From an uncultured SAR116 cluster alpha proteobacterium (GTDB lineage Bacteria > Pseudomonadota > Alphaproteobacteria > Puniceispirillales > Marisalimonadaceae), in contig CACIRZ010000005.1 in NCBI GenBank assembly GCA_902589185.1, forward strand, positions 1-64,000: DNA of 64,000 nucleotides, read 5' to 3'. A program made the translations under genes and the position numbers. Position 1 is the stretch's first letter. The number at the start of each line of letters is the position of its first letter. Below are positions 56,872-64,000 of the stretch, piece by piece. The notes below the pieces were generated by a model. The model did not search any database, was not told the DNA's origin, and saw nothing but the letters and a program-made list of their open reading frames with translations.

Positions 56872-57474
56872 TTATCTTCCTATAAATTTTATTTTAAACA
56901 AATAAAATATAACTAAAATAAATGTTATTAATTTACCAAAAGATGTATTTATTACAAAAGGCCTTTCTTTATATTTCTTTTCAAAGCTCCATTGAGAATT
57001 ATTTATTAATTCAAATTTTTCATCGGTCATATTTGGTCTCATTAAGACTCTTTTTTTTTGAATTTTCTTTGAAGTATGTACTAAAAAAATATAATCACAT
57101 TCTTTATTCATCCCTGTTTCATATAATAAAGGTATATCTAATCCAACTATAAAATATTTCTCAAATTTTTTTAGAAACGATTTTCTTTCTTTTTTAACAA
57201 TTGGGTGTATTATTCTCTCTAATTTTTTTCTTTCTTTTTTACTTTCAAATATTTTATTGCTTAGGATTCTTTTGTTAACTTTTTTTTGTTTTTGATTAAG
57301 CGACACTGATTCGGGCCATAATTTTGATATCTTGTCTATAATATACGAGTTTTTTTCCAATATTTCTTTTACTTTTTTATCTGAATCAAAAACTGGTATT
57401 TTTAAAATTCTTAACATATTAGATACAGTTGTTTTACCCATACCTATCGAACCTGTTATGCCAATTATTATCAT
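56872..57474 (-). CDS. coaE: dephospho-CoA kinase
   Basis: CoaE phosphorylates dephospho-CoA, the last step of coenzyme A synthesis. The 200-residue P-loop kinase has GITGSIGMGKTTVSNML at residues 4-20, FDSDKKVKEIL near 30, HPIVKKERKSFL near 87 and VGLDIPLLYETGMNKECDYI near 110. The last 20 residues are unusual: after FVINTS the family normally ends in a charged helix, but here LITFILVIFYLF is hydrophobic. It is divergent from hemE, with the likely replication origin between them. Confidence 0.92.
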   Translation of the reverse strand: MIIIGITGSIGMGKTTVSNMLRILKIPVFDSDKKVKEILEKNSYIIDKISKLWPESVSLNQKQKKVNKRILSNKIFESKKERKKLERIIHPIVKKERKSFLKKFEKYFIVGLDIPLLYETGMNKECDYIFLVHTSKKIQKKRVLMRPNMTDEKFELINNSQWSFEKKYKERPFVINTSFGKLITFILVIFYLFKIKFIGR

Positions 57475-57499
57475 GAAATATTTTCTTTGCTGAATAAAT

Positions 57500-57508
57500 T
57501 GTTGATAA
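57500..57508 (-). promoter_or_regulatory. DnaA box, one mismatch
   Basis: The complement reads TTATCAACA, one base away from the consensus TTATCCACA. Taken alone it would be weak evidence, but it lies in the candidate origin with three better boxes. Confidence 0.4.
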
Positions 57509-57567
57509 TTATTATTTTGTCTTGATGAATTTGATGTCCTTTTTCCATTTAAATATCTATCCAGATT

Positions 57568-57582
57568 TTAATTACATGTTAA
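57568..57582. promoter_or_regulatory. CtrA-type motif TTAA-N7-TTAA in the origin region
   Basis: TTAA-TTACATG-TTAA matches the full CtrA binding consensus. CtrA represses replication by binding the Caulobacter origin, and sites have been described in the Rickettsia origin. The base composition here makes chance matches fairly likely. Confidence 0.35.
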
Positions 57583-57608
57583 TAATACTAAATTTAAATA
57601 TTATAATT

Positions 57609-57617
57609 TGTGAATAA
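57609..57617 (-). promoter_or_regulatory. DnaA box (TTATTCACA)
   Basis: The complement reads TTATTCACA, fitting the relaxed consensus TTATNCACA. It lies directly beside an AT-only stretch, a common arrangement for box and unwinding region. Confidence 0.6.
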
Positions 57618-57660
57618 CTTTATTTGCTTATATAATTCAGTAGGATTATTTTTAAAAATA

Positions 57661-57669
57661 TGTGGATAA
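57661..57669 (-). promoter_or_regulatory. DnaA box, perfect consensus
   Basis: The complement reads TTATCCACA, the exact high-affinity DnaA box. It is 16 bases from the next box, which points the other way. Confidence 0.75.
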
Positions 57670-57684
57670 AAAACTTTTTTTCTT

Positions 57685-57693
57685 TTATTCACA
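57685..57693 (+). promoter_or_regulatory. DnaA box (TTATTCACA), opposite orientation
   Basis: TTATTCACA fits TTATNCACA and is inverted relative to the perfect box 16 bases to the left. It is 50 bases upstream of the hemE start, so bound DnaA might also affect hemE transcription. Confidence 0.6.
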
Positions 57694-57742
57694 ACTTTAT
57701 AAAATACAACAACATCATTCAACTTTTTATTAAAGTATTTTT

Positions 57743-58774
57743 GTGCAAGAAAATTTAATTAGCAAAACTCTTAAAGGTAATAAATCTGACATACCTATTT
57801 GGTTTTTACGTCAAGCAGGGAGACACATACCTGAATATTTCGAAATTAGAAAAAAAGAAACAAATTTCATTAAGTTCTGTTTAAATGAGGAGTTAATAAT
57901 TAAAAGTACAAATTTGCCTTTAAAGTATTATGACCTTGATGCTGCTATAATATTTTCTGATATTTTAATGATACCTTGGGCTATGAATAGGAATGTAAAG
58001 TTCACTAAAAATTTTGGTCCTTCCTTGAATCCTATGATTCCGAATGAAACAAATATTATACAAAATATATCTATATTTTCCAAACTCAAACCTTTAAAAA
58101 ATGCAATTAGTTATCTTAGAAATACTTTACCAAAAGACATAGGTTTAATTGGTTTTGCAGGCGCTCCTTGGACTTTAGCTTGCTATATGATTGAAGGAAG
58201 TGGAAGTAAAGATTTTATTAATACTAGAAAAGCTCTTTGGAGTTCAAATAAATGGTTTATGCAATTAATTGAAACACTTATAGTTTATGTTGCTGATAAG
58301 TTAGAAATGCAAGCAAGAGCTGGAGCTGATATCTTAATGCTTTTTGACTCATGGTCTCATATGATACCTAATAACTTTTTTAATGATTGTGCAATAAGGC
58401 CAACTGCAAAAATTATAGATATTTTAAGATCTAGAAAAATTTTTATTCCTGTTATTGGTTTTCCGTTTAAAGCAGGAGCATCTATTGTAAGATATTCTTT
58501 TGAAAGTAAAGTTGATTGTATCGCGTTAGATTGGTCAGTTGATTTACGTTGGGCAATAATGAATATTAATAAAGATATTGCTATACAAGGTAATCTTGAC
58601 CCAGCATCACTTATTCCATCTCATAGTGATTATTTAAGTCAGAATGTTTTATCTTGTTTAGATATTATGAAAGAGAAGAGATTTATATTTAACGTTGGTC
58701 ATGGTCTAACTCCCGATTGCAAGATAAATAATGTAAAAGAAGTTATTAATATTGTCAGAAATTATACCAGGTAA
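57743..58774 (+). CDS. hemE: uroporphyrinogen decarboxylase
   Basis: HemE decarboxylates uroporphyrinogen III to coproporphyrinogen III in heme synthesis. The 343-residue protein has the N-terminal signature PIWFLRQAGRHIPEYFEIR near residue 17, AAIIFSDILMIPWAM near 70, GFAGAPWTLACYMIEG near 138 and FNVGHGLTPDC near 318. The start is GTG at 57743; no ATG precedes the first motif. It is the first gene right of the likely origin. hemH, often next, is absent and hemJ follows after 9 bases. Confidence 0.97.
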   Translation: MQENLISKTLKGNKSDIPIWFLRQAGRHIPEYFEIRKKETNFIKFCLNEELIIKSTNLPLKYYDLDAAIIFSDILMIPWAMNRNVKFTKNFGPSLNPMIPNETNIIQNISIFSKLKPLKNAISYLRNTLPKDIGLIGFAGAPWTLACYMIEGSGSKDFINTRKALWSSNKWFMQLIETLIVYVADKLEMQARAGADILMLFDSWSHMIPNNFFNDCAIRPTAKIIDILRSRKIFIPVIGFPFKAGASIVRYSFESKVDCIALDWSVDLRWAIMNINKDIAIQGNLDPASLIPSHSDYLSQNVLSCLDIMKEKRFIFNVGHGLTPDCKINNVKEVINIVRNYTR

Positions 58775-60508: not shown

Positions 60509-60524
60509 TGTTTCACGTGAAACA
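60509..60524. other. parS centromere site 1
   Basis: TGTTTCACGTGAAACA is a perfect match to the bacterial parS palindrome bound by ParB. It lies in the 39-base gap between rho and mnmE, about 3 kb from the likely origin. ParB spreading from it would organise the origin region for segregation. Confidence 0.95.
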
Positions 60525-63734: not shown

Positions 63735-64000
63735 TACATATGAAAAATTTAGTTCACATGTATTTGTTTCACGTGAAACATATGAAAAATTATGTGTTTT
63801 CGAAAAAATTCTAATTAAATGGCAAAACTCAATAAATTTAATAAGTAGAAGCACTATAAAAAGTATTTGGGTAAGACACTTCTTAGATTCTGCACAACTA
63901 TATACATTCGTAAAAAATATAGAAGGAAACATAATAGATTTTGGTTCTGGGGCAGGTTTTCCAGGTATGGTGCTTGCAATAATGGGTAAAAAAAACATTC
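63718..64000 (+). CDS. rsmG: 16S rRNA (guanine-527-N7)-methyltransferase RsmG, 3' truncated by window
   Basis: RsmG (GidB) methylates G527 of 16S rRNA. The frame runs through [44 protein letters not shown] and the SAM-binding [19 protein letters not shown], all diagnostic. There is no ATG in this frame. The nearest plausible start is TTG at 63718, overlapping mnmG by 17 bases, though another rare start inside cannot be ruled out. The residues VSRET are encoded by the second parS site. The C-terminal part is beyond the window. Confidence 0.88.
63765..63780. other. parS centromere site 2 (inside rsmG)
   Basis: A second perfect TGTTTCACGTGAAACA lies within the 5' coding part of rsmG, where GTTTCACGTGAAACA is translated as VSRET. 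It is 3256 bases from parS site 1 and about 6 kb from the likely origin. In many alphaproteobacteria parA and parB follow rsmG, which would place them just outside the window. Confidence 0.95.

Follow-up and report, generated by a model that had tools for sequence, protein, structure and literature searches.

Chromosomal origins adjacent to hemE have been published for Caulobacter (Cori), Rickettsia prowazekii and Wolbachia (PMC1914354). In Caulobacter and Rickettsia the other flank of the origin is COG1806, and the identity of this flank varies across the published hemE origins and is therefore not strictly defining (PMC1914354). In the DnaA-trios of Bacillus subtilis, the guanine is held by residues Arg202 and Glu228 of DnaA and the middle adenine by Asn187, and a middle T supported less initiation than a middle C (PMC10721633). 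The same study notes that conservation of these trio-reading residues is not universal (PMC10721633). The published spacer between DnaA box and trio peaks at 10-13 bp (PMC8287927). TTGT is one of the single-strand motifs described for Escherichia coli (PMC10316083).

The gap between coaE and hemE

The window, i.e., the whole stretch of 64,000 nucleotides (64 kb) that was analyzed, comes from an AT-rich SAR116 (Puniceispirillales) genus. Its contig (70,241 bp) is part of a 1.47-Mb draft assembly that is 62% complete. The gap at 57475-57742 is, with little doubt on the comparative evidence, the single bidirectional origin of the chromosome. The following features were identified in and around it:

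56872-57474, minus strand: coaE, dephospho-CoA kinase (Pfam PF01121, above cut-off)
57475-57742, no strand: putative chromosomal origin (oriC) between the divergent coaE and hemE
57500-57508, minus strand: DnaA-box-like near-match TTATCAACA (sequence and genus alignment)
57557-57565, plus strand: weak DnaA-box-like site CTATCCAGA (sequence and alignment)
57568-57582, no strand: CtrA-type match, TTAA-N7-TTAA (sequence search)
57577-57585, minus strand: weak box-like site TTATTAACA, its position in the alignment being well conserved (genus alignment)
57608-57636, plus strand: promoter-like TTGTGA-17-TATAAT toward hemE (motif search)
57609-57617, minus strand: DnaA box TTATTCACA (sequence and genus alignment)
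57661-57669, minus strand: perfect DnaA box TTATCCACA (sequence and genus alignment)
57685-57693, plus strand: DnaA box TTATTCACA beside the triplet array (sequence and genus alignment)
57694-57706, plus strand: 13-nt spacer from box 57685 to the array (sequence)
57707-57718, plus strand: C-phased triplet array CAA CAA CAT CAT (CAACAACATCAT), candidate ssDNA-capture (deviant DnaA-trio) element
57743-58774, plus strand: hemE, uroporphyrinogen decarboxylase (PF01208, above Pfam cut-off)

The gap is 268 bp long with 82% AT and is the longest in the window, the runner-up being 139 bp. It is directly adjoined by hemE. Like the two flanking genes, most open reading frames of the window point outward from the gap (42 of 58 on the minus strand to the left, five of six on the plus strand to the right). 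AT-only blocks are located at 57505-57518, 57589-57609 and 57645-57661. An earlier note, made from the letters of the window, had described the gap as the longest one, with outward genes, AT-only blocks, one perfect box, two further boxes and a near-match, and all of these were recovered here. It had also described two inverted boxes separated by 16 bases; the pair at 57661 (minus) and 57685 (plus) is indeed inverted, but the spacing is 15 bases.

The cluster of DnaA boxes was well above chance: the gap holds four sites that have no more than one mismatch, whereas among 5000 dinucleotide shuffles none held four and one held three. The box at 57661 is the sole perfect one in the 64 kb. At the alignment position of the weak site 57557-57565, several genus members carry TTATCCAAA or TTATCCATA. 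The CtrA-type pattern was matched in 10 of 26 genus members and the IHF-type pattern WATCAN5WTR in 17 of 26, and patterns of this kind are common in AT-rich DNA.

The number of promoter-like matches in the gap was not above that in shuffles. The -35-like hexamer of the candidate hemE promoter (57608-57636) overlaps the DnaA box at 57609-57617; as a guess, this overlap could link hemE transcription to DnaA.

The C-phased triplet array

The complement of the array reads 5'-ATG-ATG-TTG-TTG-3' and belongs to the strand where the B. subtilis trios lie. Arrays were scored in five-triplet windows with C at every third place and A or T elsewhere, A not being favored over T. A score of at least 8 was reached in 88% of the genus gaps; the figure for shuffles was 2% and that for the opposite strand 4%. 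The corresponding values were 61% in other SAR116 and 46% in the class sample, each against 2% in shuffles; some members of the class lack a recognizable array. The triplets in arrays scoring at least 8 were CAA (83), CTA (65), CAT (50) and CCA (17), counts that come from related rows and are not independent. The three-base phase of C was kept across families, while the middle base varied.

Of the 25 genus arrays, 23 are preceded by a box deviating at two positions or fewer, usually at a distance of 12-13 nt (6% by chance). Where such an adjoining box exists, the spacer is 12-13 nt in 18 of 23 genus members, which places it inside or near the published peak (PMC8287927). At box 57685 of the window, no run of at least three middle-A triplets (3'-NAN-5') was found, the array there being 3'-GTT-GTT-GTA-GTA-5'. 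NAN runs do occur near other boxes of the gap; a run of this kind is likewise present in 30% of shuffled genus gaps. Next to the perfect box a second such run extends leftward, but the genus alignment does not show it, and it was treated as chance. We regard the array as a conserved sequence pattern for which a deviant DnaA-trio is the candidate mechanism, and on balance it probably serves as a DnaA-loading element.

DnaA residues were numbered as in B. subtilis (Asn187, Arg202, Glu228) by mapping. Among 98 alphaproteobacterial DnaA proteins, position 187 was occupied by Tyr in 84, Phe in six, His in five, Asn in two and Arg in one; position 202 was Lys and position 228 Glu in all 98. The B. 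subtilis residues Asn187/Arg202/Glu228 were thus not found as a set in these 98 proteins. In 27 DnaA proteins from outside the class position 187 was Ala, Gln or Thr, and therefore Asn is not general there either. The closest relative (G002) has Tyr at this position, the window's own dnaA being outside the assembly. The residue pattern is consistent with guanine setting the phase and the middle base being free, as a class-level correlation in which nearly all sampled members carry Tyr. A relation between residue 187 and the middle base was not found in the literature searched, which was that outside subscription papers. Quite possibly, although the balance is slightly against it, Alphaproteobacteria open the origin with a variant DnaA-trio, in which guanine alone is phased and the middle base is free (T > A) because residue 187 of DnaA is aromatic.

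In the proposed mechanism, DnaA would bind the box cluster (57500-57693), and DnaA would form a filament growing from the rightmost box (57685) toward hemE across the 13-nt spacer. The filament would reach the strand complementary to the C-phased triplets (57707-57718) and capture its bases in threes. The DNA would then melt just upstream of hemE, allowing helicase loading; forks would depart in both directions and ParB, acting at the two parS sites close by, would drive segregation of the new origins. Within this scheme, we infer both the loading of DnaA onto the array and a relaxed reading of the middle base by Tyr-type DnaA.

It is conceivable but rather unlikely that unwinding follows the E. 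coli type, in which DnaA held on the boxes would grip T-rich motifs (TTGT, TTATT) on the melted strand, the triplet phase being incidental. The CAA repeats do read TTGTTG on the complementary strand and so contain an E. coli single-strand motif (PMC10316083), whereas the three-base C phase is conserved across families despite the varying middle base, and the distance from box to array varies little within the genus.

More improbable is an origin confined to the box cluster, with the C-phased triplets being a hemE leader or translation element outside it. The array stands about 25 bp upstream of hemE, and this nearness alone could account for it. However, an in-frame stop (TAA) separates the array from the start of hemE, and therefore the array is no N-terminal extension of hemE in the window's genome; a coding extension was ruled out for the window by this stop. 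G063 and G183, both drafts, carry hemE and ppsR on separate contigs; in these two genomes no array was found upstream of hemE and an array-like stretch adjoins ppsR. Among 30 hemE genes of organisms outside the class, three attained the same array score, leaving a generic hemE feature unsupported.

Chromosomal position of the origin

An origin at hemE is expected and ordinary in kind. Skew was sampled in 20-kb stretches over the whole chromosome in relatives, the window's own genome being a draft. In two single-contig relatives of the same order the GC skew flips at hemE. In G048 hemE starts at about 1.491 Mb; the sampled skew is minus before this point and plus after it, and dnaA (1.567 Mb) lies away from the switch. 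In G042 the switch occurs at about 1.809 Mb, at hemE, while dnaA (1.722 Mb) is inside a stretch without sign change. The distance between hemE and dnaA is 75-87 kb in these two genomes, and dnaA as the origin position, the place that the earlier note had named for a competing skew minimum, was ruled out by their skew.

On the window's contig the strand skew likewise switches at the gap, with the minimum of cumulative purine skew at base 57742 and that of cumulative GC skew at 58131. The sole large same-genus contig sampled (G012) has its purine-skew minimum at 495,437, inside the gap. The GC-skew minimum of this contig (461,734) was less sharp, GC skew being noisy in G012 and flat over about 60 kb there.

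Two perfect parS sites were detected to the right of the gap; the earlier note had mentioned parS sites close by:

60509-60524, no strand: perfect parS TGTTTCACGTGAAACA between rho and mnmE
63765-63780, no strand: perfect parS TGTTTCACGTGAAACA just past mnmG

The genes parA and parB are located at 64364-66003 on the same contig, beyond the second site, so that both parS sites and parAB are all within 9 kb of the gap. The gap and its flanking genes were kept throughout the genus wherever both flanks are sequenced (26 members; gap length 259-289 bp), and most of the 26 have DnaA boxes at aligned positions. Skew, box cluster, parS with parAB and the conserved gap agree with the likely origin first noted between coaE and hemE. 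The location and anatomy of this putative origin are demonstrated by sequence and comparison. That the gap merely contains the divergent promoters of coaE and hemE, with boxes regulating transcription and the origin elsewhere, e.g., at dnaA, is highly improbable: the promoter-like TTGTGA-17-TATAAT does aim at hemE with its -35 overlapping a DnaA box, but the skew switches at hemE and not at dnaA in both single-contig relatives, parS and parAB are close to the gap, and the location is that of published hemE origins (PMC1914354).

The dnaA gene was not seen in the window's own assembly (62% complete). Genes of the window are collinear with those of G012, where dnaA is located about 5 kb past the position corresponding to the first base of the window, and by synteny dnaA would sit about 5 kb beyond the left end of the window's contig. 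The gene is thus missing from the assembly because the contig ends ahead of it, and true loss was ruled out.

Some other genomes differed in DnaA matches. G067 and G181 are of the same class and belong to a single family (f11); they measure about 1.4 Mb and are 92-93% complete. A search for DnaA in them found none: PF00308 had no match in G067 and only one of E=9e-4 in G181, and PF08299 had none in either. This family is a candidate alphaproteobacterial family without dnaA, or the result reflects an assembly gap. In G302 and G292, PF00308 gave 16 and 21 separate matches, respectively, compared with the usual one to three per genome. A match to the window's hemE was absent from 22 of 144 class-sample genomes, some of which may lack hemE or have a divergent copy; therefore, hemE is not a universal marker for origins.

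Comparison with described origins and unwinding systems

Like the alphaproteobacterial hemE origins, the locus has a gap beside hemE that contains DnaA boxes, is AT-richer than the genome and has genes pointing outward (PMC1914354); the positional match to the Caulobacter and Rickettsia origins stated in the earlier note is borne out. It differs from them in the other flank, which is neither COG1806 (ppsR) nor COG1253; the neighbor is coaE. The ppsR gene (PF03618, COG1806) was found in none of the 37 members of the genus (g1), two of which are 99-100% complete, and was present in 21 of 24 other members of the order. Thus, coaE forms the other flank because the genus is without ppsR. The gap is also shorter (268 bp versus 383-620 bp for the hemE origins tabulated in PMC1914354), and its one CtrA-type match is present in a minority of the genus.

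The array may be a deviant form of the origin-opening element, resembling and yet breaking the published middle-adenine rule, and appears to be common to many alphaproteobacteria. It provides a concrete class-wide trio candidate that is paired with a matching change in the DnaA protein. Whereas about 30% of shuffled genus gaps satisfy the middle-A rule by chance, the C-phase criterion offers a way to find alphaproteobacterial origins in AT-rich drafts.

The arrangement resembles the basal unwinding system of B. subtilis, with a box, a 12-13 nt spacer and triplets on the same side and strand (PMC6669920, PMC8287927, PMC10721633). The DnaA box of the window lies within 16 bp of the triplets (13-nt spacer), and the G of each triplet is retained. 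Unlike the B. subtilis DnaA-trio, the middle adenine is often T on the strand that would be loaded, and the equivalent of Asn187 is mostly Tyr in alphaproteobacterial DnaA. As in the E. coli DUE with its TTGT and TTATT motifs, the strand complementary to the CAA units carries TTGT (PMC10316083); unlike in that DUE, the triplets here are phased and stand at a fixed distance from the box.
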